From positions 1,408,001-1,472,000 of the forward strand of contig NZ_AP027142.1 in NCBI RefSeq assembly GCF_027925385.1: a stretch of 64,000 nt of DNA, in the 5' to 3' direction. The notes under the pieces are model-generated. The model did no database searches and was not told the origin of the DNA. It was given only the letters and a program-made list of their open reading frames with translations. This stretch comes from Methylocystis iwaonis (GTDB lineage: Bacteria; Pseudomonadota; Alphaproteobacteria; Rhizobiales; Beijerinckiaceae). Positions 24,119 to 50,704 of this stretch are shown here, one piece after another; the stretch's first letter is position 1; every line of letters starts with the position of its first letter. The translations under genes and the position numbers were made by a program.

Positions 24119-24385
24119 ATGGGAACCATCATTCCGCGAAGGCGCAAGGACGGCTCGACTGGCTATATGGCCCAAATCTCGATGCGACGCGACGGCCATG
24201 TGCATCCTGAGACAAAGACCTTCGATCGCAATCAGGCCGCATCAGCGTGGCTCGAAAAGCGCGAGCGCGAGCTTGAAAGGCCGGGCGCCATAAATTTTGA
24301 CCGCAAAATTCACATTTTGCCCGAGGTCATCCGTGGTGGAGCGGCCACGAGCTGCTCATCTGAGAAGCCGAAAATGGATCTTTAA
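24119..24385 (+). pseudogene. truncated tyrosine integrase (N-terminal fragment)
   Basis: An 88-codon frame. Its first 55 residues (MGTIIPRRRKDGSTGYMAQI, then RDGHVHPETKTFDRNQAASAWLEKRERELERPG) match the N-terminal DNA-binding arm of phage/island tyrosine integrases. The core-binding and catalytic domains are absent. The last 30 residues are not integrase-like and overlap the 3' end of the lipoprotein gene on the other strand. It lies beside the 5' end of dusA and points away from it. Interpreted as the relic of a dusA-targeting mobile element. Confidence 0.75.
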
Positions 24386-24627
24386 TGGTGGTGTCCCCCG
24401 CCACCGCTCAGACCGGGGCCGTTAGTCGCGTCTTCGTCGGTAGGCAATTGCCCGACGCGCTTGAGGAACGCCGCATGTTGTTCCGGCGTGTGATGAGCGT
24501 GAACGCCGCCGAGCTTGGTGTAGACGGCGGGATCCAGCGAATTGGCGGGGTTGGCCGAGCTGGTGGAATTGCAGCCCGACATAGCAGGCAGACTAGCGAG
24601 CGAGAAGATGAGCATTCGTATTTTCAC
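24382..24627 (-). CDS. small His-rich lipoprotein, copy 1
   Basis: An 81-residue lipoprotein. The signal peptide has lipobox MSGC at Cys18. The mature part holds HAHHTPEQHAAFLKRVGQLP and the C-terminus GLSGGGGHHH. It lies 49 bases downstream of the TonB receptor gene on the same strand, so it is co-transcribed. A paralogue at 47896-48117, also directly after a TonB receptor, shares the lipid-anchor CNST, the HTPEQHAAFLKRV core and the GGGGHHH tail. The His clusters suggest metal or haem binding in the periplasm. I do not recognise a named family. Confidence 0.85.
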   Translation of the reverse strand: MKIRMLIFSLASLPAMSGCNSTSSANPANSLDPAVYTKLGGVHAHHTPEQHAAFLKRVGQLPTDEDATNGPGLSGGGGHHH

Positions 24628-24676
24628 TGCGTTTTCTCCTCAAAAGATGGCGCGTCGGAGCCGCGGCAGGTCCGGC

Positions 24677-27184
24677 TTAAAACGTAATCGACGAGGTGAC
24701 GCCGAAAGTTCGCGGTCCCTGAGTCGAGATGCCCACTGTTGTCGGGGCCGTAGAGCTTCCTTGAGCCCACGTCGTCCAGGGACGATTGTTGAAAAGGTTC
24801 TTGCCCCATAGGGTCAAACTGTATTTGCGATCATCCGTGCGCACGCCAAGGCCGGCGTCGAACATCACATAGGCGCTCTGCCAATATTGGATCAAGGAAA
24901 GCGGGTTCGTATATTGCGCCTTGCTGAACCAGGCCGCGTTTGCATAAATAAATCCGTTCAGCGGCTTGCCTTTCCAATCGGTCGAACTCGCGAAAGCGCC
25001 GCCAAGCGGGCGCTCGTAGTTGAACCCGCCATTGATTTGCCACCAGGGCAAGCCGGTGATGCGCGTATTGCTGAGGGACATCGTCGAAGGCCCCCCTTTG
25101 TAGCTCCAATCCGGCGGCGCGGGCGCGTCCTTGTAGTTGACGTAGCGCGCTTCCGTATATGCCCCCGAGAGGTTTAGAGCGAGGCCCTCGAAGGGAACCC
25201 AGCGCTGCACGAACTCGATGCCTCGAAGGCGCACATGCGGCGCATTGCCAAGATAGGTCACATTCGATGTGACGCCATTGCTGTCAGCATAGGTTTTCTG
25301 CTGGCTGATCTGGAAGTCATAGAGGTCGTTCCAATACAAGTTGACGTTAGATATCAGCGAGCCATCGAACCAGTTCGTTTTTGCCCCGATCTCATAGTCC
25401 CATGAGGTTTCGGGCTTATTGAACGGGGGTTTGAAGCCCTGCGCAACGCCGCCGATGTAAATTGGCGTGTTCTGCGTGTTTACAGCCGGCTGCTTGTCCC
25501 CGCGCCCAAGCAGGCCGTAAAGCAAAATGTTCTCGTTGAGCTGATACTGCGGATTGATAATTCCGATGACGCCATTGTGATGGTTCGTTGCGCCGCCTGT
25601 GTCGGACCAACCATATCCACCCGACGCCGAGACGAGAGCGGCGTCCTGCTGAAGGACGCTGTAGGGCACGCCATAGAAATAATTCGGGCGAAATTTATTC
25701 GAGCCATAACGGATATCGTAACTGTCGCGCAGGCCGAACGTGATCGACGCCTGCTCGTCGATGTGCCAGGTTCCTTGTCCATATGCCGCGATTTGGAAAT
25801 CCCCGGCATTGTTGAGCCACCAAGTGGTGAGACCGGGCAACGCCGCCGGCCTCCCGAGCCAAGCCGCCGAGTCGACGCCGAAGGTTTCGTGGTGCATGCG
25901 ATCCTGCGCGATCTCATAATAACCGTAAAGGCCAGTCGTCCATTCGAAATCCTGTTCCTTGGGCGACGACAGCCGCAGCTCTTGCGAACTCTGCAACACA
26001 TAAGTGTCCATGCCGCCGGAGCCGAACCCGAGCTGCAGCAATTGGTTATCGGAGAACCCGTTGTTGCGGAACGAACCGTAGCCGATCGCAGAGATCGAGG
26101 TCAGCATATTGTCGCCGAACTGGTAGTTCAGCTCGTTCGAGAGCATCAGCACATGCGTGGGGTCGCGACCGTTTCGGGCGATGTACGGCGTATTCGGGTC
26201 GATGGTCCAGATGGGCTTTTTGAGTTTCGACCATACCTGCTGAAAGAATGTCGGCGTGAGTCGTGCGCCATTGGCATATATCAGGCTCGTATCGCCGATC
26301 GTTCCGGTGAGATAATCATTGTGCTCATTCGACGCATTGTAGATGAAACTGACACGGTCGCTCCATCCGTCGCCGACGCCGAGAAGCTGAAAGTGCAGTC
26401 CGAGACGATTCGTGTCGAGATAGGTCGATCCGGTTTTCGCGTCCTTGATCCAGCCGTCGCCACGATCGAGATAAACAGAGGCGCGATAGGCGAGCTGATC
26501 TTCAATGAGCGTGCCCGTAGAGTTGAATGTCTGCTTGAAGTGATTGTAGTTCCCGTAAGTCGTCCGCACCGTGGTCTTCGGCTCGAATGAGGGCGGCTGA
26601 GTATGAAATATTATAGAACCGACGTTCGTGTTTTTGCCGCCGGCAGTGCCGGTCGGACCGAGAAGAAGTTCGACCGAGCTCAGATCCACGAGGTCGCCCC
26701 ATTGGAAGCCAGCGAAGCTCCAATAGACGTTATCGACAATATACCCGGTGTCGGACGGCGAGCCGGTTCCTGCTGACCCTGCCGCGACGCCGACGCCTCT
26801 GATCGCCATACGCGACTGGCGGGGCTGCGCGATGTTCGGACGATAATTTGGCACCCGCCTCGAGAGGTCGGTCACATTGTCGACCTGCTGCTCTTCGATC
26901 GTCGTCCCCGTGACGACGCTGCCGGAGCGCGGGGTTCGCGTCAGCACTTTCTCCTGTAGTTTTTCACCGGCGCCATTGGGGCCGCTCACCTGGATATCAT
27001 TCACATGCAATGTTTCATTCGGCGCCTCGCTCGGATTTTGAGCGCCTGAGTGTTGGGATGGCGTCGATTTTGGGGATTGAGCAAGCGCTTCATTACGCGG
27101 GATGCTTATCGACAAGCTGACCAGGATTGACGCCAGAGACGCTCCAGAGAACAGGCGCGATCTAATAGAAACTTGCCCCACCAT
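24677..27184 (-). CDS. TonB-dependent receptor, copy 1 of lipoprotein-linked pair
   Basis: An 835-residue outer-membrane receptor from ATG at 27184 (MVGQVSIRSRLFSG), with AGAGGG 7 bases upstream; the promoter at 27249-27277 rules out the longer frame. It has a signal peptide, a plug (GTTIEEQQVDNVTDLSRRVPNYRP, then VELLLGPTGTAGGKNTNVGSI) and a barrel ending TFGVTSSITF. It is homologous to the receptor at 48188-50704 along its length (for example FRFSSPKE/LRLSSPKE, NYEHPVG/NYERPLG, SLSNTR). The substrate is unknown. Pairing with a His-rich lipoprotein suggests a metal or metal chelate. Confidence 0.92.
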   Translation of the reverse strand: MVGQVSIRSRLFSGASLASILVSLSISIPRNEALAQSPKSTPSQHSGAQNPSEAPNETLHVNDIQVSGPNGAGEKLQEKVLTRTPRSGSVVTGTTIEEQQVDNVTDLSRRVPNYRPNIAQPRQSRMAIRGVGVAAGSAGTGSPSDTGYIVDNVYWSFAGFQWGDLVDLSSVELLLGPTGTAGGKNTNVGSIIFHTQPPSFEPKTTVRTTYGNYNHFKQTFNSTGTLIEDQLAYRASVYLDRGDGWIKDAKTGSTYLDTNRLGLHFQLLGVGDGWSDRVSFIYNASNEHNDYLTGTIGDTSLIYANGARLTPTFFQQVWSKLKKPIWTIDPNTPYIARNGRDPTHVLMLSNELNYQFGDNMLTSISAIGYGSFRNNGFSDNQLLQLGFGSGGMDTYVLQSSQELRLSSPKEQDFEWTTGLYGYYEIAQDRMHHETFGVDSAAWLGRPAALPGLTTWWLNNAGDFQIAAYGQGTWHIDEQASITFGLRDSYDIRYGSNKFRPNYFYGVPYSVLQQDAALVSASGGYGWSDTGGATNHHNGVIGIINPQYQLNENILLYGLLGRGDKQPAVNTQNTPIYIGGVAQGFKPPFNKPETSWDYEIGAKTNWFDGSLISNVNLYWNDLYDFQISQQKTYADSNGVTSNVTYLGNAPHVRLRGIEFVQRWVPFEGLALNLSGAYTEARYVNYKDAPAPPDWSYKGGPSTMSLSNTRITGLPWWQINGGFNYERPLGGAFASSTDWKGKPLNGFIYANAAWFSKAQYTNPLSLIQYWQSAYVMFDAGLGVRTDDRKYSLTLWGKNLFNNRPWTTWAQGSSTAPTTVGISTQGPRTFGVTSSITF

Positions 27185-27248
27185 GTCGGACCCTCTCGTT
27201 AACACCCGGATGCGCATCGAGCGCGGGTTCAGCATCGTCCATATAAAT

Positions 27249-27277
27249 ATATAAAATAGGTAGAGTTTATAGGTCAA
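27249..27277 (-). promoter_or_regulatory. promoter with inverted-repeat operator for TonB receptor copy 1
   Basis: On the minus strand: -35 TTGACC, 17-base spacer, -10 TTATAT. TACCTATTTTATA (27250-27262) overlaps the spacer end and -10. Nearly the same arrangement lies before the second receptor (50738-50767) and the DUF1549/DUF1501 operon (55344-55372). Confidence 0.7.
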
Positions 27278-27863
27278 TCGAATTTGAAGAGGTTGGCGTT
27301 CAGCCACGGGTGGTGGGGATGAGCCGAGTGGCGGCTGACGGTGTCGGTGCAATTCATCTATATGATTGTAAAACGATTTGGTACGTTGTGTTGTTAGTCA
27401 TGGCGGCCTTCGGGTAGATTCGCGCCGAACAGCCTGACCAGCTCAAGCGGCTGTCTGATTCTGTTATTAAGCTATTTGTATGGTATGGTTATGCCTTACC
27501 AGGCGCCATCGGTTCTTCGCGCCAGCCACTCAATGAGCTTCAAAGAAAGCGCGCGCCGCCATTCTCGGATGCCGACGCGCACTCAATGAGCTCAAAGAAA
27601 GCGCGGCGCGTGCGACATCTTTTGGAAGGGGATAACGCGACCGCTTTCAATCAACGTGGCATGACGGTTACGAACCCCGAGCGCCAGATTCTGAAATGCG
27701 CCAAGGGCCATCGCTTATCCTCACGGGCGGAATGCTCTGTGCTGCAGCAACGCCTCCGGATCGATCCGGCTAATAATCCACTTGTTCGGTAGGATATATG
27801 GAGTAGTATGCCTGTGCGGGCTCTTCCTAAACCCGCGGAGATCCCGACGAATAGGAAAGACAC
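27278..27863. other. intergenic region with 53-bp-period direct repeat
   Basis: No convincing gene; a 68-codon frame at 27586-27792 shows no protein-like features. Two copies of CACTCAATGAGCTCAAAG-type sequence continuing into AAAGCGCG lie at 27527-27560 and 27580-27610. The fae promoter must lie in the right-hand part. AGGAAAG precedes the fae start. Confidence 0.6.
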
Positions 27864-28373
27864 ATGGCGAAGATCACAAAGCTTCTGGTCGGCGAGTCGC
27901 TGGTGGGCGAAGGCAATGAAGTCGCGCATATCGATCTGATCATCGGGCCGCGCGGCTCGGCGGCGGAACTGGCTTTCGCCAATGCGCTTGTCAACAATAA
28001 GGATGGCTTCACGACCCTGCTCGCGGTTATCGCGCCGAATCTTCTGGCGAAACCGAATACCATCCTCTTCAACAAGGTGACGATCAAGGGCGCAAAGCAA
28101 GCTGTCCAGCTCTTTGGTCCCGCCCAGCATGGCGTCGCAAAAGCTGTCGCGGACTCTGTCGCCGAGGGCGTCATTCCGATCGAGGAGGCCGACGATCTCT
28201 TCATTTCGGTCGGCGTTTTTATCCATTGGGAAGCCAACGACGACAAGAAGATTCAAGACTACAACTATCAGGCTACGAAAGAGGCCATCGCGCGCGCCGT
28301 GGCAGGCGAACCCAAAGCGTCCGACGTCGTCGCCAGCCGCAACGAGGTAAAGCATCCTTTCGCCGCGAACTGA
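27864..28373 (+). CDS. fae: formaldehyde-activating enzyme
   Basis: A 169-residue enzyme that condenses formaldehyde with tetrahydromethanopterin, the entry to the H4MPT C1-oxidation pathway of methylotrophs. Full-length match to the Fae family pattern: [77 protein letters not shown] and EVKHPFAAN. His22 corresponds to the conserved catalytic His. An AGGAAAG site lies 5 bases before ATG. It stands alone here: no mch, mtd or fhc genes are adjacent, and a decayed cytochrome c follows. It may be the main Fae or an extra copy. Confidence 0.96.
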
Positions 28374-28670: not shown

Positions 28671-29535
28671 GAGGGTGTTATGCACTCTGTATTACGAAGT
28701 CGGCTGCGCGTTTGAGCATGAGGCAGGCAAAAGCGACGACGTGGAGGCCAGCGAGTGTGTCGGCGTAGCGTTCGTAGTCTTTGACCAGCCGCCTGCATCG
28801 GGTCGCCCAAGCGAAGGATCGTTCGACAACCCAGCGTTTGGGCAACAGCACGAAGCCTTTTTTCGCTTCGGAGAGTTTGACCACGCAGAGTTCGACGCCC
28901 TGCGCTTTGGCCGCCTCCGTGGCTTTCTCGCCGGTATAACCTTGATCGACATAAATAAGCTCGACGTTCTCGCCTGTGGCGTCCTGCACAGCGGCGGCGA
29001 GCTTGCCGACCTCGGCGCGGTCGTCGACATTCGCTGGCGTAACGTGCAGCGCCAGCAAGTGCCCCAGCGTGTCGACCGCCATGTGCAGCTTGGAGCCGCG
29101 CTTGCGCTTGGCGCCGTCATAGCCGGCCCGTGGACCGCTTTCCGGCGTCGAACGCAGCGTGCGGCTGTCGATGATCGCCGCGGTTGGCTCCTCGGCGCGA
29201 CCGGAGGCGACGCGCAACAAGGCGCGCAGGTCCTGCGCAAGCTCTTCGAACACGCCCGCCGCCAGCCAGCGCTGCGATTGCTGATACACTGCGGACCAGG
29301 GCGGCAGATCGTTGGGCATGGCGCGCCATGCTATGCCGTAACGCAGAACGTAGCGCAGGCCGTTGAATAGCTCACGAAGCAAATGCTGACGTTGCGGAGC
29401 GCCCTCGTCCATCAGCGTCAGATACGGCGCAACCAGCGACCATTCCTCGTCGCTGACATCAGACGGATACGGTTTGCGAATCGGAGACATCCGATTCCAT
29501 TAAGATAATCAACTACCAAAGTACATAACACCCTC
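28671..29535 (-). mobile_element. IS5-family insertion sequence
   Basis: An element of about 865 bp with terminal inverted repeats: the left end GAGGGTGTTATGCACTCTG matches the complement of the right end, GAGGGTGTTATGTACTTTG, with two mismatches. CTAG is present at both junctions (28668-28671 and 29535-29538), consistent with the YTAR-type target duplication of IS5-family elements. It carries one transposase gene and splits a cytochrome c gene. Confidence 0.92.
28678..29490 (-). CDS. IS5-family transposase
   Basis: A 270-residue DDE transposase that appears complete. The N-terminal DUF4096-like part reads VSDEEWSLVAPYL. The catalytic triad lies in AAIIDSRTLRST (Asp), IYVDQGYTG (Asp) and RWVVERSFAW (Glu, Y/R-type context). 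It is a single uninterrupted frame spanning the IS, so it may be active. Confidence 0.95.
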   Translation of the reverse strand: MSPIRKPYPSDVSDEEWSLVAPYLTLMDEGAPQRQHLLRELFNGLRYVLRYGIAWRAMPNDLPPWSAVYQQSQRWLAAGVFEELAQDLRALLRVASGRAEEPTAAIIDSRTLRSTPESGPRAGYDGAKRKRGSKLHMAVDTLGHLLALHVTPANVDDRAEVGKLAAAVQDATGENVELIYVDQGYTGEKATEAAKAQGVELCVVKLSEAKKGFVLLPKRWVVERSFAWATRCRRLVKDYERYADTLAGLHVVAFACLMLKRAADFVIQSA

Positions 29536-36112: not shown

Positions 36113-36153
36113 TATTTATCCGACCATTTTTATAGTATATGACCCCGATAAAA
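36113..36153. promoter_or_regulatory. divergent promoter region with TTTATCCG/CCGATAAA arms
   Basis: The 91-base gap between the divergent RibD-C and RibA-like genes is AT-rich. It contains TTTATCCG and CGATAAAA in inverted orientation about 25 bases apart, with TATAGTATATG between. This could be a shared operator; low confidence. Confidence 0.35.
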
Positions 36154-36175: not shown

Positions 36176-37246
36176 ATGATCGAAAAATTCTCAGGCGAAG
36201 CAACTGCGAACGTCGAGGTCGAGCGCGCGATCGCCGAGGTTCGGGCCGGAAGGCCTGTCCTCTTGAGCGAGGACTCGCGTTGCGCGCTTGTCCTTTCCGT
36301 CGAAGCGCTCGACGCTGGAGAGATAGAGCCCTTTAAACAAGTTTCGAGCGGCGCCGCGCACCTCGCGCTTACGCCGACGCGCCTGCGACGCCTCGGGGCG
36401 GACCGTCAAAGCGCCGGGTTCATTACGCTGCCGTCGATCGACGTCAAACGGATCATGACCCTGGCCGCCGACGCCCAGGCCCGTCTCGATGCGCCGGTCG
36501 CGGTCGCGCCGTCTCTTTATGAAAGCGCCTTGCAGCTTCTCCGTCTGGCCCATGTCCTGCCGGCGGCGCTCATCGTTCCAATCGAGGACCAGACGCCACC
36601 GGGGTTGCTGACAGCGCGGGCAGCAAATGTGAATGCTTTCCGAGGCGAACGGAATGGGCGTTTACGTATCGTCAACCGGGCGCCCGTTCCGTTGGAAGGC
36701 GCGCCGGACTCAGAGTTTGTGGTTTTTCGTGGCGGCGAGGGCCTGCGGGATCAAGTGGCGATCGTCATCGGCCAGCCAAATATCAGAGAACCGGTCACTG
36801 TCAGGCTGCATTCGGCATGCCTTACGGGCGATCTTTTCGGCAGCTTGAAATGCGACTGCGGCGACCAGTTGCGCCGCGCCGCGCGCCATATGGCGGAAAA
36901 TGGGGGCGGCGTGCTGCTTTACCTCGACCAGGAGGGCCGCGGAAACGGGCTGGCAAACAAGATCCACGCCTATAGCCTTCAATCGCGTGGGTTCGACACA
37001 TTCGACGCCGACGAAATCCTGGGTTTCGAGGAGGACGGACGCACTTTCGGCTTCGCAGGAGAAATGCTGAAGCTTCTCGGCGTGACGCAGATCCGCGTGA
37101 TGACCAACAATCCCACTAAGCTGAGCGCTCTGGAGGCGGCGGGGCTGGTTCTCGTTTCGGACCATCGGATCGTCGGCCGCAAAAACAATCACAACATTCG
37201 CTACCTCGCCACAAAACGAGACCGGGCGGGGCATCTGCTCGATTAA
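36176..37246 (+). CDS. ribA: GTP cyclohydrolase II-like protein
   Basis: A 356-residue protein. Residues about 165-356 form a GTP cyclohydrolase II domain: zinc cysteines in SACLTGDLFGSLKCDCGDQL (C-x10-C-x-C), GGGVLLYLDQEGRGNGL, and RVMTNNPTKLSALEAAGL. The N-terminal 160 residues look like a degenerate RibB-type domain (VRAGRPVLLSEDSRC). The family opens the GTP imidazole ring to give the diaminopyrimidine precursor of riboflavin. Its location beside the PTPS-like, GT4 and methyltransferase genes suggests it may feed that pathway. Confidence 0.88.
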   Translation: MIEKFSGEATANVEVERAIAEVRAGRPVLLSEDSRCALVLSVEALDAGEIEPFKQVSSGAAHLALTPTRLRRLGADRQSAGFITLPSIDVKRIMTLAADAQARLDAPVAVAPSLYESALQLLRLAHVLPAALIVPIEDQTPPGLLTARAANVNAFRGERNGRLRIVNRAPVPLEGAPDSEFVVFRGGEGLRDQVAIVIGQPNIREPVTVRLHSACLTGDLFGSLKCDCGDQLRRAARHMAENGGGVLLYLDQEGRGNGLANKIHAYSLQSRGFDTFDADEILGFEEDGRTFGFAGEMLKLLGVTQIRVMTNNPTKLSALEAAGLVLVSDHRIVGRKNNHNIRYLATKRDRAGHLLD

Positions 37247-37293: not shown

Positions 37294-37322
37294 TTGCTAT
37301 TTATCTACCCTCTTTGTAGATT
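37294..37322 (+). promoter_or_regulatory. promoter with TAC-N7-GTA repeat before the RND operon
   Basis: TTGCTA, 17-base spacer, TAGATT, with CTACCCTCTTTGTAG (37305-37319) overlapping the spacer end and -10. It resembles the operator arrangement of the two TonB receptor promoters. The coding start at 37368 follows 46 bases later. Confidence 0.5.
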
Positions 37323-37367
37323 GAATTTCAATCCCGGCCAATGCGGCAGACGAGGTCTTAAAGAGTC

Positions 37368-38618: not shown

Positions 38619-41600
38619 GCGCGATCGACCTTTCCCGCCCTTTCATCCTTCGGCCGGTGGCGACCTCGCTGCTGATGGCGGCAATACTCCTCGCGGGGGC
38701 TATCGCCTATCGCCTCCTGCCAATTTCGGCATTGCCGCAAATCGACTTCCCAACGATCGAAGTCCGAACCTTCTACCCCGGCGCCAGTCCGGAGGTGATG
38801 GCGTCCGCCATCACCGCGCCGCTCGAACGCCAACTCGGCCAGATGCCCGGCCTTGCGCAGATTGCTTCGACAAGCTCCGGCGGCGCATCGGTTATAACGC
38901 TGCAGTTCAGCCTGAAGCTGACGCTCGACGTCGCCGAACAGGAGGTGCAGGCGGCGATCAACGCCGCGGCAAGCTTCCTTCCCACCGACCTTCCCGCGCC
39001 GCCTGTTTACGCAAAAATCAATCCGGCCGACGCCCCAGTTCTGACGCTCGCCCTGGTTTCCAAAACGCTTCCGCTCACCGAGGTTCAGCAATTCGCCGAC
39101 ACGCGAATAGCGCAGAAAATTTCCCAGCTCTCGGGCGTCGGCCTTGTCAGCGTCAGCGGCGGCAACCGCCCGGCGGTGGTTGTGCGCGCCAATGTGGCGG
39201 CGCTCGCCTCCTATGGCATGTCGCTTGAAGACCTGCGGACGGCGATCTCGAGCGCCAATGTCAATTTGCCTAAGGGCAACATCGACAGCCGATCGCAAGA
39301 ATTCGCGATCGACTCCAACGATCAGCTTAAAAGCCCTAAGGATTACGACCAGCTTATCGTGGCGAATCGAAACGGCGGGCCGGTGCGTCTGCGCGATGTC
39401 GCCAAAGTCCTCAACGGCGCGGAAAACAGCGAGCTGGGAGCGTGGAGCAATCTAACTCCCGCGATCATCGTCAATATCCAACGGCAACCCGGCGCCAATG
39501 TCATCGCCGTCGTCGATCGGATCAAGGCCCTGTTGCCGACCTTGCAGGCGTCGCTGCCGGGTTCCATCGAGGTGGCGATTTTATCCGACCGCACGACGAC
39601 CATTCGCGCATCGATCGAAGATGTGCAATTCGAGCTTTTCTTCGCCGTGCTCCTCGTCGTCGGCGTGATTTATCTTTTTCTCGGCAATCTGCGCGCGACG
39701 CTCGTGCCCAGCGTCGCCGTGCCGCTCTCGCTCGTCGGCGGCTTCGCCGTCATGTATCTCTTGGGCTACAGCCTCAACAATCTGACGCTGATGGCGTTGA
39801 CCATTGCGACAGGCTTCGTCGTCGACGACGCCATTGTCATGGTCGAAAATATTGCACGCTATTTGGAAAAGGGCCGCACGCCCATCGACGCCGCCCTGGA
39901 AGGCGCGCGAGAGATCGGCTTCACGATCGTCTCGCTGACGATTTCGCTCATCGCCGTGTTAATTCCCTTGCTTTTCATGGGAGAAATCGTTGGCCGGCTG
40001 TTCCGGGAGTTCGCCGTCACCCTTGCAGCGACGATCATTTTGTCAGCCGTCGTGTCTCTTACATTGGCCCCCATGCTTTGCAGCAAGCTGCTCGCGCAGG
40101 GCGACATGCATAGCCATGTCGACAGCCACGCCAAGGGGGCGACCTGGTTCGACGCGATCATCGACTCTTATGGTCGCCTGCTGACGCTGGCTCTCGATCA
40201 CGCCAGAACGACTCTCGCCGTGTTTCTCGGCGCGCTTTGCCTGACCGGCGTCTTGTACGTGGTCATTCCAAAAGGCTTCTTCCCCGTTCAAGATACGGGG
40301 CTGATCCAGGGCGCGACAATCGGAGAACAGAGCGCCTCTTACTCGACGATGTCAAAGCGGCAACTCGCGCTCGTGAAGCGCCTGCTGGACAACGACGCGG
40401 TCGAGTCAGTTACCTCCACGCTCGGCGTCGATGGCGAGAACAAGACGCTCAACAGCGGCCGCGTCCTGATCAAATTGAAAGACAGAGCGGAGCGCAAGGC
40501 GACGGCGACGGAAGTTGTTCGCCGGTTGCAAGCGGCGGCAAAAGACGTCGGCGGCATTTCGCTCTTCTTGGAGCCCGTACAGGATCTCACCATCGATTCA
40601 GGCGGAGGCCGCGGCGCCTATCATTTCGCTTTGCAGGACGCCAATCCGGATGAGCTTGCGCATTATGCGCCGCAACTCGTCGAGCGGCTCGCCAGCCTGC
40701 CGCCTTTCGAGGATGTTTCCAGTAGCGCCCAAACCTCGGGGCGGGCCCTTTACGTGGAGATCGATCGCGACGCGGCCGCGCGCTATGGGGTCACGGTCTC
40801 GACAATCGATAACACGCTGTATGACGCCTTCGGTCAACGGATCGTGTCCACGATTTTCACGCAGACGAGCCAATATCGCGTCATACTCGTAGCCGACGGC
40901 CGCAGCGTTCCGAGCCTCGATGCGCTCGGTTCTCTCCGAGTGCCTGGCGCGGGCGGCTCTGAAGTTCCGCTCGCTTCGCTCGTCACAATCCGCGAAACGA
41001 AAGCGCCGCTCTCATTCGACCATCTCTCGCAATTCCCGGCGGTGACAATTTCTTTCAATCTCGCGCCCGGTTTCGCGCTCAGCGACGCCATTGCCGCCTT
41101 GAAACAGGCGCAGAGCGACCTTGGCGCGCCGCAGAGCGTCATCACGGTTTTCCAGGGCGCGACGCAGGCGTTCGCCTCGTCGACGACAAGCACGCTGCTG
41201 CTCATTCTCGCCGCGATCGTCACCGTCTACATCGTGCTCGGCATCCTGTACGAAAGCTACATCCATCCGATCACCATCCTCTCCACATTGCCGTCCGCCG
41301 GCATAGGCGCCCTTTTCGCGCTCATGATCACGGGGAACGATTTCGGGATCATCGGCGTGATCGCCATCATCCTTCTGATCGGCATCGTGAAGAAGAACGC
41401 CATCATGATGATCGATTTCGCCTTGCAGGCGGAACGCGACGAAGGTCTCTCTCCGCGTGAGGCGATCTATCAGGCGTGTCTCCTGCGGTTTCGTCCGATC
41501 CTCATGACGACGCTCGCAGCCTTGCTCGGCGCAGTCCCGATGATCGTCGGCGGGGGCGAAGGTTCGGAGCTTCGGCTTCCGCTTGGCGTCAGCATCGCCG

Positions 41601-41743
41601 GCGGCCTGATCCTGAGCCAGATTCTGACGCTCTTTACGACGCCGGTCATTTACCTTGCGTTCGACAAGCTGGCGAAACGGTTGCCGATCGGGCAGGGGCG
41701 CGACGCGACAGCCTCCTCGGCGGCGGAGGAAAAATGCGCCTGA
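38615..41743 (+). CDS. RND multidrug efflux pump subunit (MdtB-like)
   Basis: A 1042-residue HAE1-family proton-driven pump with two sets of transmembrane helices and large periplasmic loops. Signatures are [19 protein letters not shown] at the N-terminus, [18 protein letters not shown] (TM4 Asp pair), [15 protein letters not shown] and [19 protein letters not shown]. The start overlaps the adaptor stop by 4 bases. Paired with a second pump gene, it probably forms a heterotrimer as MdtB and MdtC do. Drug or substrate range unknown. Confidence 0.93.
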
Positions 41744-44700
41744 TCGACCGCGCGATCGACCGCCCGGTCGCAACCAGCCTTCTAATGCTGGGCCTCTGCC
41801 TCGCGGGTCTTGTGTCTTTCTTTGTGCTGCCGGCGGCCCCGGTTCCACAAATCGACTATCCGGTCATCAGCATCGGGGCCAATATGCCCGGCGCAAGCCC
41901 CGAGATTATGGCTTCCTCCGTCGCTACGCCGCTCGAGCGACGCCTCGGTCAGATCGCCGGCGTCACGGAAATGACGTCGGCGAGCTACCTCGGCTCGACC
42001 CGCATCAATCTTCAATTCGATCTGGATCGCAACGTCGATGGCGCGCAAAGAGACATTCAGGCGGCGATAGCCGCCGCGCGTGCGGACATGCCCGCCAATC
42101 TGCGCAGCAACCCGACGTTCAGGAGCGCCAATCCCGCCGAGGTCCCGGTGGTCATCATCGCGCTCACCTCTGATCGGCTGTCGCAAGGGGCGCTTTTCGA
42201 GGTCGCGTCAAACATCCTGCAGCAGAAGTTTTCGCAAGTGGAAGGCGTCGGGCAGGTCACCGTCGGCGGCGGCGCCCTCCCGGCCGTCCGCGTCGAAGTC
42301 AATCCGCGCACGCTTTTCCAATATGGACTGTCGCTCGAAAGCGTGCGCACAGCGCTCGGCGCGACGAATTACAATGGCCCCAAGGGCGCGTTCGACTCCG
42401 GCGACCAGCGCTACCAGATCTACGCCAACGATCAGTCCCGCAAGGCGCGGGACTATGACGGCGTCATTGTCGGCTATCGGAACGGCGCGGCGGTCAAGCT
42501 CCACGATGTCGCAGAGGTGATCGACTCTGTGGAAGATGATCGAAATTTCGGCGTCAGCAATGGACGCCCTGGCGTTCAGGTTCAAATTTACCGCCAGCCC
42601 GGCGCCAATTTCATCGAGCTCGTCGATCGCATCAAGGCGCTCATGGGGCCGCTTTCCGCAGCGCTTCCTGCCGAAGCCGAGATGCGCATCGTGCAAGACA
42701 GAACTTTGACGATCAGAACCTCGCTGCGTGAGATCGAGACGACGCTGGCGTTGAGCGTCATGCTCGTCATCGCCGTCGTCTTCGTCTTTCTGCGCGATCC
42801 GCGTGCGACCGTCGTCCCCGGCGTCTGTGTCGTCGTCTCCTTGCTCGGCGCGCTCGTCGGCATGTATCTACTCGACTATAGTCTCAACAATCTCTCCTTG
42901 ATGGCGCTGACGATCGCGACGGGATTCATCGTCGATGACGCCATCGTCGTCGTGGAAAATGTCACGCGGCTGATAGAAAGCGGCATGCCATCGAGGCGGG
43001 CCGCGCTTCTCGGCGCGCGGCAGGTCGCCTTTACAGTCCTCTCGATGACGCTTTCGCTGATCGCGGTTTTTCTCCCGATCATGTTCATGGGCGGGATCGT
43101 GGGCCGCATGATGCGAGAATTCGCCGCAACGCTTTCGATCGCTGTCCTCGTCTCGCTGCTCTTGTCCCTCACGACCGCGCCGATGCTTTGCGCGCATCTT
43201 CTCGAGGATGTGACGCACGCCGCAAGAGCGCGCCTTTTCGAGGCGACCGAAGTTGGTCTCGCCGTCCTTCATCGCCTCTATTTGGCGAGCCTAGGCTATG
43301 TTCTCGATCATCGCCGTCTCGTCCTTTTCGCGCTCCTGGCGCTCGTCGGAGTGAATCAGCACCTCTTCACGATCATACCGAAGGGCTTCTTTCCGGTGCA
43401 GGATACGGGGCGCATGCGCGGCGCGATGATTGCCGACCAGAGCGCGTCTTTTACCGTCACGAAGAAGAAGCTCGAGCAAGTTGTCGCAATCCTGCAAAAC
43501 GATCCCGGAATTGAGTCTGCGACGGGTTGGATCACAAGCTCCGCGAATTTCGCTGACTTGCTCGTGACATTGAAGCCGCTCAAAGAGCGTGGGATTTCAG
43601 CCGAAAAAATCTTGGCGCGACTGCGGCCGAAATTCGCTCAAGTCCCCGGCGTCCAGCTTTTCCTGCAATCCACGCAGGATATTCGCATTGGCGGCCGATC
43701 GAGCAATGCCCTTTTTCAATACACGCTCCTGGCCGATTCCCTCGAAGAGCTGCGGCTCTGGGGACCGCGTATTACCGAGGCGCTAAAGCGCCATCCGACG
43801 CTGGCCGACGTGAATTCCGATCAGATGGAGAAAGGCTTGCGCTCGGATGTCGTCGTCGATCGCGAAACGGCCGCGCGCCTGAATGTCTCCTCAAGCCAGA
43901 TAGACAACACGCTTTATGACGCCTTCGGCCAGCGTCAGGTGTCGACGATCTTCGAACCGTTGAATCAGTACCATGTGGTGCTCGAGCTGGCGCCGAAATT
44001 CAGGGAGTCGCCTAACGCGCTGGCTGAACTCTATATTGGCGCGCGCGGCGGCCAGCCTCCCGTCATCACGACAAGCCGAACGCCGATCAACGGTCTTCGC
44101 GCTCTGTCGCTCCCCGCAAACGCATCGGAACGCATGATTCCCTTCGCGTCCTTCAGCTCGCTGAACGCCGGCCCGACTCCGATGCAGGTGAATCATCAGG
44201 GACATTTCGCGGCGGTCACCGTCTCCTTCAATCTCTCAGAGGGGAAAGCTCTGAGCGACGCGGCCACGGCCATCTCGGAGACAATCGCGAAAATCGGCGC
44301 TCCCGCCACGATCCAAGGGGCTTTCGCCGGGACCGCCGCGAGCTATCAGGAGACGCTCGCGAACCAGCCCTTCATGGTCGCCGCGGCTCTCGCAGCCGTC
44401 TATATCGTTCTTGGAATCCTTTACGAGAGTTTCTTTCACCCGCTTACCATTCTATCGACTCTGCCTTCCGCGGGACTCGGCGCGCTCGCCGCGCTGCTTT
44501 TGTGCGGGACGGATTTCAGCATCGTTGCGATGATCGGGGTCTTGCTCCTCATCGGCGTGGTGATGAAGAACGCCATCATCCTTGTCGATTTCGCCATCGA
44601 CGCCGAGCGCACGCGGGCCGCCCCGGCGCGCGACGCGATCATCGAGGCCTGTGCGATGCGTTTTCGCCCGATTCTGATGACGACGTTCGTTTCGATCATG

Positions 44701-44916
44701 GGCGCCGCGCCGCTTGCAATCGCGTCCGGCGAGGGCGCCGAAACGCGGCAACCCCTTGGCGTCGCAATTATCGGCGGGCTGGTCGTCAGCCAGCTACTGA
44801 CGCTCTACACGACGCCCGTCGTGTTCCTCTACGTCGACAAAGCCGAACGGCTGATAAAAAGCTGGCGTATCGGGCTCTCGCGGCCCTCCGAGCTGAAGAC
44901 GCTCTTTCGGGGTTAA
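41734..44916 (+). CDS. RND multidrug efflux pump subunit (MdtC-like)
   Basis: A 1060-residue HAE1-family pump. ATG at 41734 is used because GGAGGA precedes it; the frame extends further upstream inside the preceding gene but lacks family similarity there. Signatures are [57 protein letters not shown] and [19 protein letters not shown]. It overlaps the preceding pump by 10 bases. Confidence 0.93.
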
Positions 44917-44997
44917 ATACTATCGTTGGAGTAGGTAAGTAATCGCGATTGCGTGAAATGTGGCTTGACTAGCAGGCTCAATGGAGCAATAAATCTA

Positions 44998-45016
44998 CTT
45001 ATCCACTATGGATAAG
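44998..45016 (+). promoter_or_regulatory. CTTATCC-N5-GGATAAG palindrome before the MBL-fold gene
   Basis: A perfect 7-base-arm palindrome just upstream of the start at 45030 that overlaps the AAGGAA ribosome site. An upstream TTGACT-N17-AATAAA promoter lies at about 44965-44993. The palindrome is either an operator or an mRNA hairpin covering the ribosome site. Confidence 0.5.
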
Positions 45017-45029: not shown

Positions 45030-46505
45030 ATGCGGATCCCATCGGTTGCCCTCTGCGGTTTCACCGCCGCCTTCGTTTTCCTCCCTATCGCTGCTGACGC
45101 CGCCTCTCTTCAGGAAGCGGCTGCGGCGCTCGGCGCCGTCGACGCCAAATCCCTTGAATTCTCTGGCGCCGGCCACTGGTATCAATTCGGCCAGGCGCCT
45201 GTGCCCGGCGGCCCATGGCCACAATTCGAAGTCAGCAGCTATTCTGCGAGCGTGAATTTCAACGCGCCCGCCCAACGCGTATTACTCACCCGCATCCAAA
45301 CGGTCGAGCCCGGCCGCCAGCGCCCAACGCCGACCGAGCAGAAGCTCTCCTGGCTCGTGAGCGGCGACAAGGCATGGAATGTCGCCCCGCCCGCCAACGC
45401 GTCCCCTGACGCCGCGCCGGTCGCGACCCCGCAACCCGCCTTGGTCGAGGAGAGGACGGCGGAAATCTGGACGACGCCACAGGGCTTTCTGAAGGCGGCT
45501 CTCGCCAATGGCGCAAAGTCGAGCGCTTCGGGCGCCGGCGTGCAAATCTCCTTCACGAGCGCCGGCCATAAATATGAGGGCTATATCAACGCCGCCAACC
45601 AGCTCGAATGGGTGCGGAGCTGGATCGATAGCCCGGTGCTCGGCGATACGCTCGTCGAGACAAAGTTCTCCGGTTACAAAGATTTCGGCGGCATTCAATT
45701 CCCGGCCGAACTGACCCGTAGCCAGGGCGGCTTTCCCGTTCTGCATGTGAAGGTCGCCTCGGCGAAGCTCAACCAGGCCGTCGACATCCCCGTCCCGGAA
45801 AATATCGCAAGCTCCAAGGCGGCGGCGCCGACTGTGACCGCGAACAAGCTGGCCGAGGGCGTCTATTGGCTCACGGGCGGCACGCATCACAGCGTCGCGA
45901 TCGAGCAGAAGGACCACGTGGTGCTCGTCGAAGCGCCGCTCAACGAAGAGCGCTCACTCGCGCTCATCGCCAAGATTGCCGAGATCGCGCCCAACAAGCC
46001 GATCAAATATGTCTTGAACAGCCATGTTCACTTCGACCACTCCGGCGGGTTGCGCACTTTCGTGGATGCTGGCGCGACGCTCGTGACTCACGAACTCGAC
46101 AAGCCTTATTACGAGCAGGCGTGGTCGGCCCCGCATACGCTTCGCCCGGACCGCCTCGCGCAGTCGAAGAAGGCTGCGAAGTTCGAGACCTATGCGGACA
46201 AACATGTTCTTTCGGACGGCGCGCGGCAGATCGAAGTGCATCGCATCGCCGGCAATGGGCACAGTGACGAACTAGCGCTCGTCTATTTGCCGGCGGAGAA
46301 AATTCTCATCGAGGCCGACGCTTTCACGCCGCAGGCAAAGGATGCGCCGCCCCCGAAGAGCCCCAATCCCTACTCGGTGAATCTCTATGAGAATATCCAG
46401 AAGCTGAAACTGGATGTCGCGCAGATCGCCGGCCTCCACGGTCCGCGCGTCGGGGCTCTGGCGGACCTGCGCGCTGCGATCGGGCAACCTCCGCTCGCGC
46501 AATAG
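45030..46505 (+). CDS. secreted metallo-beta-lactamase-fold hydrolase
   Basis: A 491-residue protein with a signal peptide (FTAAFVFLPIAADA). An N-terminal domain of about 260 residues carries beta-rich repeats (FEVSSYSASVNFNAPAQRVLLTRIQ). The C-terminal metallo-beta-lactamase domain has the zinc motif SHVHFDHSGG (HxHxDH), plus IAGNGHSDELALVYLPAEKILIEADAF and GLHGPR. Substrate unknown; the family includes hydrolases and alkylsulfatase-like enzymes. It stands alone, with a strong terminator after it. Confidence 0.9.
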   Translation: MRIPSVALCGFTAAFVFLPIAADAASLQEAAAALGAVDAKSLEFSGAGHWYQFGQAPVPGGPWPQFEVSSYSASVNFNAPAQRVLLTRIQTVEPGRQRPTPTEQKLSWLVSGDKAWNVAPPANASPDAAPVATPQPALVEERTAEIWTTPQGFLKAALANGAKSSASGAGVQISFTSAGHKYEGYINAANQLEWVRSWIDSPVLGDTLVETKFSGYKDFGGIQFPAELTRSQGGFPVLHVKVASAKLNQAVDIPVPENIASSKAAAPTVTANKLAEGVYWLTGGTHHSVAIEQKDHVVLVEAPLNEERSLALIAKIAEIAPNKPIKYVLNSHVHFDHSGGLRTFVDAGATLVTHELDKPYYEQAWSAPHTLRPDRLAQSKKAAKFETYADKHVLSDGARQIEVHRIAGNGHSDELALVYLPAEKILIEADAFTPQAKDAPPPKSPNPYSVNLYENIQKLKLDVAQIAGLHGPRVGALADLRAAIGQPPLAQ

Positions 46506-46661: not shown

Positions 46662-47282
46662 TCAACTGGCCGCGCATTGGTCGAGCCAGACATCCGAAAG
46701 CCCACGTCTCTCGCATTTCCCGGCGAGGTACTTTTTGATCCGCGCGACTCTTTCACCGTTCTCTTTTGAGCCCGGCGCAATCTTCGGGGTGTTGTTGGTG
46801 GCGATCAGCGAGAGAAATTCCTCGTCGCTCAGTGACTGGAGCGGCTTACCGAACCACTTCGCCGACAAGGCCTCGAAACCATTTACGTCCAGGAACGCCG
46901 CCAACTGCGCGTTTTTGGATGAGAGAGGCGCAACCGCGAAATAGGCGATCAAAGTCTGTTTGATTTTCCCGAAGCCCGGACGGAAATCCTCGAAATAGAG
47001 CTTCTTGACGACCGACTGCGTCACGGTTGTCGAAAGCGGATAGCTCCAGTCGACGCCGCTATGCGACCAGAAACGCGGATCCTGCACCTTGACAAGAATG
47101 TCCTGTCTCTCTTGCGACAGAACCGATGGCCCCTTCGTCCCATTTGCGGTCTCCGCCTCATATTTTGCGAACTTCTCTTTCGTGACGTTGCGAGCGGCTG
47201 CAACCTCGTAGGTTTCGTAGGCGAGAACCGCCAGAACCGCAGTAGCCAATGCCAAAACAAGAAATTTGCTCATGCGCTGCAT
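46662..47282 (-). CDS. degenerate GT51 (peptidoglycan transglycosylase-like) protein
   Basis: A 206-residue protein with an N-terminal transmembrane segment (MSKFLVLALATAVLAVLAYE). The GT51-like domain has KVQDPRFWSHSGVDW and TTVTQSVVKKLYFEDF, then LAAFLDVNGFEALSAKWFGK and SLSDEEFLSLIATNNTPKIAPG. The usual catalytic Glu of the EDRRF motif is Gln67 here (VQDPRF), so it is probably inactive as a transferase. ATG at 47282 has GAGG 5 bases upstream. It is monocistronic. Confidence 0.75.
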   Translation of the reverse strand: MQRMSKFLVLALATAVLAVLAYETYEVAAARNVTKEKFAKYEAETANGTKGPSVLSQERQDILVKVQDPRFWSHSGVDWSYPLSTTVTQSVVKKLYFEDFRPGFGKIKQTLIAYFAVAPLSSKNAQLAAFLDVNGFEALSAKWFGKPLQSLSDEEFLSLIATNNTPKIAPGSKENGERVARIKKYLAGKCERRGLSDVWLDQCAAS

Positions 47283-47482
47283 CGCATCCTCTATATTCAT
47301 ACAAAGTCAGTGTGCTTTTTAATTGGTCCCGCAGCGTGGCGGGATCCCGCCGATTTATTGACGCGGTCGACAACCTGCGCTGTACACAGGAGTTGCAGAG
47401 TGCATCGTCGGCGGATTGGCGAAGGCGATGCTTGTCATGCGAAAACGGAGATCTTCAGCCAAGCGCGCCCGCGGCGCCGCGT

Positions 47483-47895: not shown

Positions 47896-48117
47896 TTAGT
47901 GATGATGTCCGCCGCCGCCGCCCAGGCCTGACGGATCGGCCGATTCATCCGTTTCCAATTGCTTGACCCGCTTCAAAAACGCCGCGTGTTGTTCGGGCGT
48001 GTGGCGGGCATGGCAACTCGCATCACAGCTTTCGCTCAATTTCGTCGTCCTTGTAGAGTTACAGGATTCGAGTGCGGGCGCAAAGCACAGCACGGCGATT
48101 AGAAACGACGCCTTCAT
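47896..48117 (-). CDS. small His-rich lipoprotein, copy 2
   Basis: A 73-residue lipoprotein. The signal peptide MKASFLIAVLCFAPALESC has lipobox LESC at Cys19. The mature part has CDASCHARHTPEQHAAFLKR (an extra pair of Cys compared with copy 1), and the C-terminus is GLGGGGGHHH. It is 70 bases downstream of the TonB receptor gene and presumably co-transcribed. A paralogue of 24382-24627 with the same genomic arrangement. Confidence 0.88.
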   Translation of the reverse strand: MKASFLIAVLCFAPALESCNSTRTTKLSESCDASCHARHTPEQHAAFLKRVKQLETDESADPSGLGGGGGHHH

Positions 48118-48187
48118 TAGGTTCTCTCTTTCTTCACGACTGGAACTGGCTTTGGCGACGATCGCGTCCGATCTTGGCGCGTGTCGT

Positions 48188-50704
48188 TCAGAAGAGCTTT
48201 ACGCGGAGTGCGCCGCCCCAGGTGGCGTCCCAGCGCGCAAGGCCGACGCGCGCCGGCGTTCCGGGGGTTCCTTGATCCCAGGAGTTAAAGGGTCTCTCGT
48301 TTCCGATATTCTTGGCCCAAAAGCTGAGACTGTAGCGATCGTCTTCTGTGCGTAAGCCGACGCCGGCGTTCACATAAGCGAAACTTCCCTGCCAATACTG
48401 AGCAACGGACCAAGGGTTGGTCAGCCGTGTCTTGTCCTGCCAGCTTACGTTGACGTAGCCAAAAGCTTTGATCGGCTGCCCAGTCCAGGCGCCGAAACCT
48501 CCCAGGCTCGAGAAATCGCCGAGATTGGAAAACACGCGCCCGACCGGATGCTCGTAGTTTGCGCCAATATTGAAGGTCCACAGCGGAACGCCTTGCCAGC
48601 GCGTATTGGATAGCGACAATTGCCGAGGCGCGGGCACGGGCCCGCTGGGCCAACTCCAGTCCGGCGGCGGGCCGGCATCCGGCCAGCTCACCCAACGCGC
48701 GTCCGAGAAGGCGCCATTGAAAGTGATCCACAATCTGTCGATTGGGCTCCATCGCCCGTCGAATTCAATGCCGCGGATGCGCGCATGAGCGGCGTTCCCG
48801 AGCGTCGTCAGGCCGAGAGGCGCGCCATTGCTGTCGACCGAAACGCCGTCGATGACGTTCGTCTGGAAATTGAAAAAATCGTTCCAGTAGAGGTTCACAT
48901 TGAACAAGAGGTGGTTGTCGAACCAGTTGGACTTAAATCCGAGCTCATAATCCCATGAGTATTCCGGCTTGGTGATGACCGTCGGGAATGAGTCGAATTT
49001 GTAGACTCCCGACGCATTCTTGACATAGCGCGGGTTCGCGCTCGTGTTCACGGCCCCGGCTTTTTCCGCACGGCCAACCAGTGCGTATATTTGGACGTTA
49101 TCGTTGTACTTGTACTGTGGATTGAATATCCCAGTAAGAAAATTGTGAGGCTTTTCCTTGCCGCCCGTATCCGAGAGGCCGCGGCTCCCGGCGGCGATGA
49201 CCGCCTGATCCTGAGCAAAAACTGAAACGGTCGGATAATAGCGGTTGAGCTGGCTAACCGAACCTTGGCGAATTTCGTAGCTCTCGCGCAGACCGAGCGT
49301 AGCCGACAACTTCTCATCGAGGTGATATGTCGCCTGGCCGTAGGCGGCAGCCTGAAAGTCGCGCGCATGGGTGTAATCCCATACCGCTACGCCGGGAAGG
49401 GCGCCTGCACCGTAACGAGGTCCTAGCCATTTCGCAGCGTCGACCCCGAAAACGGTATGATGCATTTGGTTCGCTGCGTCGTCGTAAAAGAGATAGACGC
49501 CGGTCGTCCACTCGAGGTCGCGATCTTCTTTGGGTGAGCTGAAACGGAATTCCTGCGACGCCTGACCCACGTAGGTGTCCATGCCTCCCCGCCATAGCTG
49601 GAGCAATTGCGTGTCTTCGAAATAACGCTGCTCATTTCGCGTGAAGCCATAGGCCGAGATGGATGTAAAAAGATTTTCCCCAACGCCGATGTTGAGTTCG
49701 TTCGAGACGGTGACGGTTCTTACCGGATCGACGCCCTCGTTTGCGATGGACGGCTTGTATGGGTCCCAGGACAATATCGGCTTGCCGAGCTTGGTCGCCA
49801 CATTCTGCGCAAAGGTCGCCGCCGGACGCGTGCCGTTGGCGTAGGTCAAGAAGGAGTCCGAGTATGGCCCGAGCGTGTAGCCGTTGTATTCGGTTGACTT
49901 GCTGAAATTGACGATGAGGCGGTCGGTGACCTCGTCGCCGACGTAGAGCAACTGCCCACGCACGCCCCAGCGGTCAGTGTTCTTGTAACCGGCGCCGGTC
50001 ACTTGGTCGTGAATCCAGCCGCTGCCCTTATCCAGGAAAACGCTGACGCGATAGGCGAGCTTCTCATCGATGATCGGACCCGTGACGTACGCTTTCTCGA
50101 TGACGCGGCTGTGATTGGCGAAATGGGTCTCGAAACTCGCCTGCCGCGCGAAGGACGGCAGTCGGTTGTTGATGATGAGACTGCCAACCGCGGTATTCTT
50201 CCCTCCCGCCGTTCCTTGCGGGCCATAGGCGACCTCGAAGGATCTCACATCGAATTGGTCCATCCACTGGAAGCCCCAGTATTTCCAGAACACGTTGTCG
50301 ACCACGTAACCTGTGGGGGACTCCGTGCCGACGCCGGTGCCGGCCGCGCCGACGCCGACCCAGCGAATGGTCTGGCGGGAGGCCTGGCTCGCGCCGCTGT
50401 TGTTGGCGCGATAATTAGGGATCAACTGCTGCAATTCGTCGAGCCGATTGATGTTTTGATCTTCCATGGTCTTTTCGTCGACGACGACAATCGACCTCGG
50501 CTTTTCCTGGGCTTGTTGAACGGGGCGATCGATGCCGCCGTTTCCTTTGCCGCTCACGACGATGTTATCGACCTCTATCGGCCCTTGTGCGGACGCAGTG
50601 TCCTCAGCCTGGGCGGACGGCGCCGAGAAAAGCGCGGTGGCCGCCGCCAAAATCGAAACGCTGCTCATAAGCGCAGACCCAAATTGCCGGTTGGCGGCAC
50701 GCAT
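48188..50704 (-). CDS. TonB-dependent receptor, copy 2 of lipoprotein-linked pair
   Basis: An 838-residue outer-membrane receptor with a signal peptide ending SAPSAQA. The plug has IVVVDEKTMEDQNINRLDEL and VAYGPQGTAGGKNTAVGSL, and the barrel ends WGGALRVKLF. It is homologous throughout to the receptor at 24677-27184. ATG at 50704 has GGAGGGG 6 bases upstream. The promoter with inverted repeat lies 34 bases before it. The RQTIRWVGVG plug segment is well conserved between the copies. Substrate unknown. Confidence 0.93.
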   Translation of the reverse strand: MRAANRQFGSALMSSVSILAAATALFSAPSAQAEDTASAQGPIEVDNIVVSGKGNGGIDRPVQQAQEKPRSIVVVDEKTMEDQNINRLDELQQLIPNYRANNSGASQASRQTIRWVGVGAAGTGVGTESPTGYVVDNVFWKYWGFQWMDQFDVRSFEVAYGPQGTAGGKNTAVGSLIINNRLPSFARQASFETHFANHSRVIEKAYVTGPIIDEKLAYRVSVFLDKGSGWIHDQVTGAGYKNTDRWGVRGQLLYVGDEVTDRLIVNFSKSTEYNGYTLGPYSDSFLTYANGTRPAATFAQNVATKLGKPILSWDPYKPSIANEGVDPVRTVTVSNELNIGVGENLFTSISAYGFTRNEQRYFEDTQLLQLWRGGMDTYVGQASQEFRFSSPKEDRDLEWTTGVYLFYDDAANQMHHTVFGVDAAKWLGPRYGAGALPGVAVWDYTHARDFQAAAYGQATYHLDEKLSATLGLRESYEIRQGSVSQLNRYYPTVSVFAQDQAVIAAGSRGLSDTGGKEKPHNFLTGIFNPQYKYNDNVQIYALVGRAEKAGAVNTSANPRYVKNASGVYKFDSFPTVITKPEYSWDYELGFKSNWFDNHLLFNVNLYWNDFFNFQTNVIDGVSVDSNGAPLGLTTLGNAAHARIRGIEFDGRWSPIDRLWITFNGAFSDARWVSWPDAGPPPDWSWPSGPVPAPRQLSLSNTRWQGVPLWTFNIGANYEHPVGRVFSNLGDFSSLGGFGAWTGQPIKAFGYVNVSWQDKTRLTNPWSVAQYWQGSFAYVNAGVGLRTEDDRYSLSFWAKNIGNERPFNSWDQGTPGTPARVGLARWDATWGGALRVKLF

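Follow-up and report, generated by a model that had tools for sequence, protein, structure and literature searches.

Known transporters with lipoprotein partners

TbpA/TbpB, SusC/SusD and BtuB/BtuG are pairs of an outer-membrane transporter and a lipoprotein in which the partner is large and binds the ligand. We describe here the pairing of a TonB-dependent receptor with a mini-lipoprotein, found twice in a 64,000-nucleotide stretch of Methylocystis iwaonis DNA (contig NZ_AP027142.1, positions 1,408,001 to 1,472,000; called the window below), in which, unlike in those systems, the partner mostly has 73-92 amino acids, ends in a His tail and contains no Pfam domain. The genome has 4.48 Mb in 7 contigs and the window is C1:1408001-1472000. 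Copper decides methane-oxidation chemistry in many methanotrophs, and to our knowledge little has been described of how copper crosses their outer membrane by routes other than methanobactin. An earlier note on this DNA, made from the letters alone, knew of no named system of this form; none was matched by family, structure-sequence or literature searches, and no description of such a pair was found in the openly licensed literature.

Among described receptors, FyuA (the yersiniabactin/pesticin receptor) is alike in fold, with a sequence match limited to the plug region, and we know of no lipoprotein partner of such kind for it. With OprC of Pseudomonas aeruginosa, which handles ionic copper, the likeness lies in the Met and His of the barrel, which in OprC belong to a copper site; excerpts of PMC8610252 give this site as Cys143 and Met147 of the plug with His323 and Met325. 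The CxxxM (plug)-HxM (barrel) arrangement is not found here, both window receptors having 0 Cys and the residues specific to their clade being M375, M414 and H415. MbnT shares with the present receptors the genera, the TonB route and copper biology. It is encoded with mbn genes, and in Methylosinus it carries a signalling domain at its N-terminus and is accompanied by FecIR-type genes, according to excerpts of PMC3621798 and PMC9601215. In contrast, neither window receptor has an STN domain (PF07660), only plug and barrel; no FecIR genes were noticed, no search having been aimed at them. The signalling role considered in the earlier note is not supported by this. No mbn gene was present among the window genes scanned with Pfam, a scan which covered part of the open reading frames and for which mbnA is too short. 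Finally, CrtA (BfrG), a copper-chelate TonB transporter of Bordetella, is described as a scavenger-type copper importer with an invariant His as selectivity filter; the likeness is one of description, and the word lipoprotein is absent from the text of that paper.

The two receptor-lipoprotein pairs

The two pairs are made up as follows.

24382..24627, minus strand: lipoprotein A, 81 amino acids, GTG start; CNST after the lipobox, KLGGVHAHHTPEQHAAFLKRV and a GGGGHHH tail
24677..27184, minus strand: TonB receptor A, 835 amino acids from ATG; PF07715 and PF00593; clade I
47896..48117, minus strand: lipoprotein B, 73 amino acids; CNST, two extra Cys (SCDASCHARHTPEQH...) and a GGGGHHH tail
48188..50704, minus strand: TonB receptor B, 838 amino acids; PF07715 and PF00593; clade III

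Both pairs are present where the earlier note had placed them, in the same order, with gaps between receptor and lipoprotein of 49 bp (pair A) and 70 bp (pair B). For receptor A an alternative TTG start at 27352 is likewise open. The plug (PF07715) and beta-barrel (PF00593) domains score above the curated cut-off in both receptors; neither lipoprotein matched any Pfam or NCBIfam family. As first read, the lipoproteins are identical in CNST, HTPEQHAAFLKRV and GGGGHHH, and the codons of the tail are not the same in the two genes. Both are putative lipoproteins: each has the lipobox Cys, but the strict pattern [LVI][ASTVI][GAS]C, present in 18 of 27 aligned sequences, is failed by both of the relaxed window lipoboxes (..MSGC and ..LESC).

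To call the pairs a duplicated module was too strong. Receptors A and B share 47% identity and fall into different subclades, their genes have only two short DNA matches in common, and a recent tandem duplication of the module was rejected on the receptor tree and the DNA comparison. In Methylocystis sp. Sn-Cys, one locus matches receptor B with 99% identity. That strain carries 2.6 kb more than the window at about 47850 (L066 8734-11372), which encode a third TonB receptor of 837 amino acids, outside the signature clade described below, directly after lipoprotein B; this receptor is absent from the window genome.

Linkage of the lipoprotein to the receptor

All ten genomic copies found of the lipoprotein gene, spread over 6 species of Methylocystis and Methylosinus, come immediately after a receptor gene, at most 190 bp downstream, and these receptors belong to one family. 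This linkage is more than chance, since a DNA pattern for GGGGHHH followed by a stop has 10 sites in 298 genomes of the bacterial family and 9 of them directly follow such a receptor; no site of the reversed pattern was among the matches listed. The tenth site (G314) was rejected, as it sits in an unrelated Gly/His-rich open reading frame. The converse fails: the lipoprotein stands beside 10 of the 77 receptors compared, a set with at least 350 bits and at least 700 amino acids, taken from receptors first listed at E ≤ 1e-20 and including near-copies from Sn-Cys, which is the same species as the window. The count proposed in the earlier note, of how often the small gene follows such a receptor, came out in favour of the pair; the pair is not typical of the receptor family.

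At the level of genomes, the lipoprotein is present in 7/7 with an intact receptor of the signature clade (G000, G223, G025, G201, G233, G257 and G269, of which the first two are one species, giving 6 species) and in 0/9 with only other intact receptors (G002, G007, G021, G031, G280, G245, G218, G118 and G153). One of these nine, G153, has no lipoprotein and holds 58 residues of a broken receptor of the signature clade (93% identity with L097); another, G280, has three further receptor fragments or weak matches, which the tree does not include. Receptors of the family are also present in G009 and G034, which were left out of the count of nine; neither is in the list of the GGGGHHH-stop search, and the flanks of their receptors show no lipoprotein (just 200 bp of flank for G034). 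In G027 the receptor match is weak.

A profile search for the lipoprotein gave 25 proteins, many from short contigs only. In the alignment of 27 sequences, the central motif HTPxQHAA is found in 27/27, an H.H end in 27/27 and an exact HHH end in 26/27, and the length is 73-92 amino acids in 25/27, the other two having 94 and 128. One member (P0002) is named 'cobalamin biosynthesis protein CobD/CbiB' in one source, a label that is probably wrong. Pairwise comparisons of genes from different species gave dN well below dS (e.g., 0.07/0.40), and the family is under purifying selection. Across the 298 family genomes, strong profile matches occurred at 9 places in 6 genomes; 50 genomes had a match at E ≤ 0.1, of which the non-strong ones (E ≥ 0.01) were treated as chance. 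These genome searches scored the best 13-18 candidates per genome, and an all-candidate pass over 10 Methylosinus genomes found the lipoprotein in 4. In 397 genomes of the order and 385 of the class, with scoring of the best 13-14 candidates from each, the lipoprotein was found in the own genome only; one order-level match, in G482, was rejected as a false positive with no motif in common. The lipoprotein of M. heyeri (G025), of 71 amino acids, is divergent: it has CNS, the Gly-run and HHH and lacks HTPEQH, was missed by the profile searches and was recovered by the GGGGHHH-stop pattern. That the lipoprotein is a conserved partner of the receptor, as the earlier note had argued from its recurrence in the same slot, is well supported.

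A receptor clade with its own Met/His signature

What is new is that the partnered receptors are confined to one clade marked by residues that no other receptor of the set carries. In the tree of the 77 receptors (midpoint root), all ten fall within a clade of 23 (SH-aLRT 100), the lipoprotein accompanying 7/8 members of subclade I (with window copy A), 1/4 of subclade II and 2/11 of subclade III (with window copy B). Its presence needs four changes on the tree versus 9.6 in shuffles. From this tree, the window pairs descend from old receptor branches, between which the small gene was lost or gained. We screened every alignment column for conservation of His, Met or Cys within the clade: M375, M414 and H415 (copy B numbering) are present in 23/23 members versus 0/54 of the other receptors, and H416 in 23/23 versus 43%. 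The corresponding residues are M392 and M430-H431-H432 in receptor A, and M375 and M414-H415-H416 in receptor B. The same search over the 77 receptors found no clade-conserved Met or His in the plug. As judged from sequence, the signature suggests a soft-metal site. In M. heyeri, receptors of this clade also bear His-rich N-terminal tails, one of them with no lipoprotein beside it.

The AlphaFold2 model of receptor B (pLDDT 83.1, pTM 0.82) shows a barrel with a plug, and its closest solved fold in a VIA-align structural search is that of FyuA, a metal-chelate receptor. OprC and CrtA were not among the best 50 structural matches listed, which excludes nothing.

The receptor family is numerous in Methylosinus, with 23 matches in G269, 21 in G257 and 15 in G233, fragments included. 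Broken or fragmentary receptor genes were seen at G269:C3:226486-240104 (L167), G257:C6-C8 and G153:C4 (L103), mostly on smaller contigs, suggesting a fast turnover of the family in that genus.

A palindrome and a 34-kb island

Motif discovery on the upstream regions of 73 receptors (near-duplicates dropped, start codons assigned by script) gave a single palindromic motif. A model trained on these regions scores at least 15 in 60 of them, and 43 of the 60 sites begin 28-75 bp before the assigned start codon. In the window it finds 13 sites, all within 27.2-60.1 kb, of which 11 lie outside the training set (those of receptors A and B were used in training), versus 0 sites in 20 control stretches (400 kb) of the own chromosome. 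Because of this difference, we place the two pairs in a putative co-regulated island of 34 kb. The palindrome is AT-rich, and the GC content of the island is 0.60-0.62 versus 0.62-0.67 for the controls. At scores of at least 16 on both strands, column-shuffled models gave 0.55 matches on average versus 21 observed; a palindrome-symmetrised model gave a background of up to 7.4 matches on average in AT-rich Methylosinus loci. At the second cysD-like locus of strain OB3b (L240), matches of up to 23.4 occur in an AT-rich repeat about 4.8 kb from the gene, so that repeats of this kind can fool the model. The sites and the main genes of the island are the following.

27242..27270: operator-like palindrome upstream of receptor A
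27465..27492: operator-like site in the receptor A-fae intergenic region, score 16.5
27772..27799: operator-like site 64 bp before fae, score 20.8
27864..28373, plus strand: fae paralogue (formaldehyde-activating enzyme), PF08714
30146..30173: operator-like site with no clear gene start nearby, score 23.2
36114..36141: operator-like site in the interval between the divergent genes for a RibD_C-type reductase and for GTP cyclohydrolase II (36176-37246)
37298..37325: operator-like site ahead of the RND efflux genes at 37368-44916
44989..45016: operator-like site, score 21.5, 13 bp upstream of the MBL-fold gene
45030..46505, plus strand: MBL-fold protein, 491 amino acids
47293..47320: operator-like site at the start of a transglycosylase-domain gene (46662-47300), score 18.8
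50731..50759: operator-like palindrome upstream of receptor B
51002..51029: operator-like site between the DUF1501 gene and receptor B, score 17.1
51330..52781, minus strand: DUF1501 protein, homologues of which recur beside receptors of the same family
52815..55133, minus strand: PSCyt2-PSD1 protein (DUF1549/DUF1553)
55477..55505: operator-like site, score 16.8, roughly 345 bp ahead of PSCyt2-PSD1
57674..57701: operator-like site 241 bp before a cusF-like gene (57943-58290; PF11604) and 132 bp before an unnamed gene of the opposite strand (57117-57542)
60079..60106: operator-like palindrome, flanked by a FadL-like gene (58747-60057) and a sulfur-transport-like gene (60184-60615)

The island also holds PTPS and glycosyltransferase genes. 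Parts of it recur elsewhere: in M. heyeri (L179), MBL, DUF1501, PSD1, receptor and lipoprotein genes form one cluster, with the palindrome before the receptor and before the MBL gene (score 17.6 for the latter), whose product resembles the MBL protein of the window when the N-terminal residues are compared by eye. On contig C2 of the own genome, the palindrome, at L189:8074-8101, precedes another fae gene. This genome has a second PSD1-DUF1501 array, close to whose likely start there is a further site, 8.3 kb from the site of the receptor paralogue L006. Related receptors are accompanied by Rrf2 regulators at L073 (regulator at 3005-3439) and in OB3b; the two regulators are 53% identical to each other, and none is present in the window. 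The palindrome is a putative operator, and a regulator of this linked Rrf2 type is a candidate to bind it.

Possible function and its alternatives

We tentatively favour, with somewhat less than even confidence, a bicistronic outer-membrane uptake unit for a soft metal or its chelate, most likely copper, with the lipoprotein as acceptor. Receptor and lipoprotein would be co-transcribed from the palindrome-bearing promoter. The receptor would handle its ligand, presumably copper or a copper chelate, near the extracellular rim through M414-H415-H416 and M375 of the neighbouring strand. The lipoprotein, probably anchored in the outer membrane and facing the periplasm, could take the released metal with a His-containing, predicted helix (H-x2-H-x4-H), the flexible Gly-run and the HHH tail, and then pass it onward. 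Hand-over of a metal, probably copper, is preferred because of the Met/His signature and the metal-binding-like constant tail of the lipoprotein; the metal or chelate suggested in the earlier note gains indirect support from this signature and from the FyuA fold. An extended form, a hitherto undescribed way for alphaproteobacterial methanotrophs to acquire copper in which the island would add synthesis, export and re-uptake of a pterin- or flavin-like metal chelator, seems quite improbable to us. It would draw on the genes for GTP cyclohydrolase II, the RibD-type reductase, PTPS and the glycosyltransferase, which look like those of small-molecule biosynthesis, while the RND exporter, fae, DUF1501/PSD1 and CusF would be its companions in the palindrome-linked island.

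Several observations weigh against copper uptake by the pair. The signature was found post hoc, and common ancestry alone could explain it. Of the 23 receptors that carry it, 13 have no adjoining lipoprotein, among them relatives of receptor B at 75-77% identity. The copper site of OprC is not reproduced, the receptors being without Cys, and poly-His binds not just Cu but also Zn, Ni, Co and Fe. In the model of receptor B, the strand ends, if directly paired, put M375 opposite residue 411, three to five residues away from M414-H416; this offset weakens a one-ion site made of all these residues and slightly lowered our confidence. The palindrome also precedes receptors without the signature, some of them beside sulfur genes, and is missing at L068 (with lipoprotein), L105 and L130, all of them in clade II. 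Finally, the best structural relatives are mostly ferric-siderophore receptors, and sulfur-related genes adjoin unpartnered paralogues.

There are four alternatives. Import of organosulfur compounds (sulfonates or sulfate esters) under sulfur limitation, with the lipoprotein in an accessory part, either without binding the ligand or as an aid with a metal-containing sulfur compound, is unlikely, though the neighbours of unpartnered paralogues speak for it: an SsuA-family binding protein (above cut-off) and a rhodanese-like protein (below cut-offs) at L211, cysteine synthase A (above cut-off) at L072, an arylsulfotransferase-family gene at L073, and, on plasmid pOB3b1 of M. trichosporium OB3b (L191), an Rrf2 regulator together with a family 2A encapsulin and its cysteine desulfurase cargo, an encapsulin type induced by sulfate starvation in Synechococcus according to an excerpt of PMC8049743. 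In addition, the partnered receptor of M. heyeri has an NMT1/NosL binding protein at a distance of about 6 kb, the palindrome-bearing fae of contig C2 is near NMT1-type ABC genes and the island contains a gene with a Sulf_transp domain. However, these neighbours are examples chosen by eye with no random-gene background, none of the sulfur genes seen is an immediate neighbour of a receptor with a lipoprotein partner, and the Met-His signature and the HHH tail are left unexplained. A classical sulfur (cys) regulon was rejected, the palindrome being absent at scores of at least 14 from the cysDN/cysH regions of 7/7 genomes; an eighth region covered, L240, is the one with matches in an AT-rich repeat.

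Rather unlikely in our view are ordinary ferric-siderophore receptors with a structural, assembly or iron-relay helper, a reading suggested by the best structural matches, most of which are ferric-siderophore receptors (FyuA, FoxA, Fiu, FhuA and FecA), by sequence matches to the solved structures of FyuA, Cir and an enantio-pyochelin receptor over the plug region, by the siderophore-receptor subfamily TIGR01783 as best NCBIfam match, and by a gene near the receptor of L198 which we take from its sequence to be of PepSY type. Yet the TIGR01783 scores of 106.4 and 73.7 bits are far below the 223.5 cut-off, a likeness of fold is no proof of function, and a general helper would be expected outside the signature clade too, where the lipoprotein accompanies 0/54 receptors. 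Uptake of lanthanides or their chelates, which methanotrophs need for XoxF, is very improbable: the organism and the TonB route fit and the fae paralogue has the same palindrome, but Met and His are poor lanthanide ligands and no lut gene was noticed nearby, no search having been aimed at lut. Equally remote is that the lipoprotein is a hitchhiker whose function is not tied to the receptor; the 13 unpartnered clade members would agree with this, against which stand purifying selection, the complete linkage of its ten copies and its co-occurrence with the clade across genomes.

The receptor clade, with the Met/His signature exclusive to it and its dedicated lipoprotein ending in a His tail, is a directly testable candidate for a copper route, our preferred reading, and the palindrome-linked island is a list of genes to test alongside it. 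Should the ligand be organosulfur or iron, the locus would still represent an undescribed receptor-lipoprotein pairing within a large receptor family.

Other features of the island and of related loci

An IS4/5-type transposase is present at 28678-29490 of the window, between fae and an MdoH-like gene, and Sn-Cys (L065) is about 0.9 kb shorter at the matching stretch. Near the CusF gene there are a small His-rich exported-looking open reading frame (58384-58617) and a P-type ATPase (61108-63429) whose N-terminus is His-rich and which contains a heavy-metal binding domain. COG0523 and DUF1826 genes near several Methylosinus loci were considered as a Zur/zinc link, which was set aside because unrelated genes lie in between.

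In OB3b, the surroundings of the L191 receptor also include ExbB/TolR-type genes and a nitrogenase-like protein. At L189 2401-3798, near the C2 fae, and at L179 577-2037, within the M. heyeri receptor cluster, there are genes for ABC substrate-binding proteins of NMT1 type that end in a NosL-like domain. In Methylosinus sp. H3A, a gene of the methane/phenol hydroxylase family (PF02332; L067 12704-14386) lies 2-3 genes upstream of the partnered receptor.

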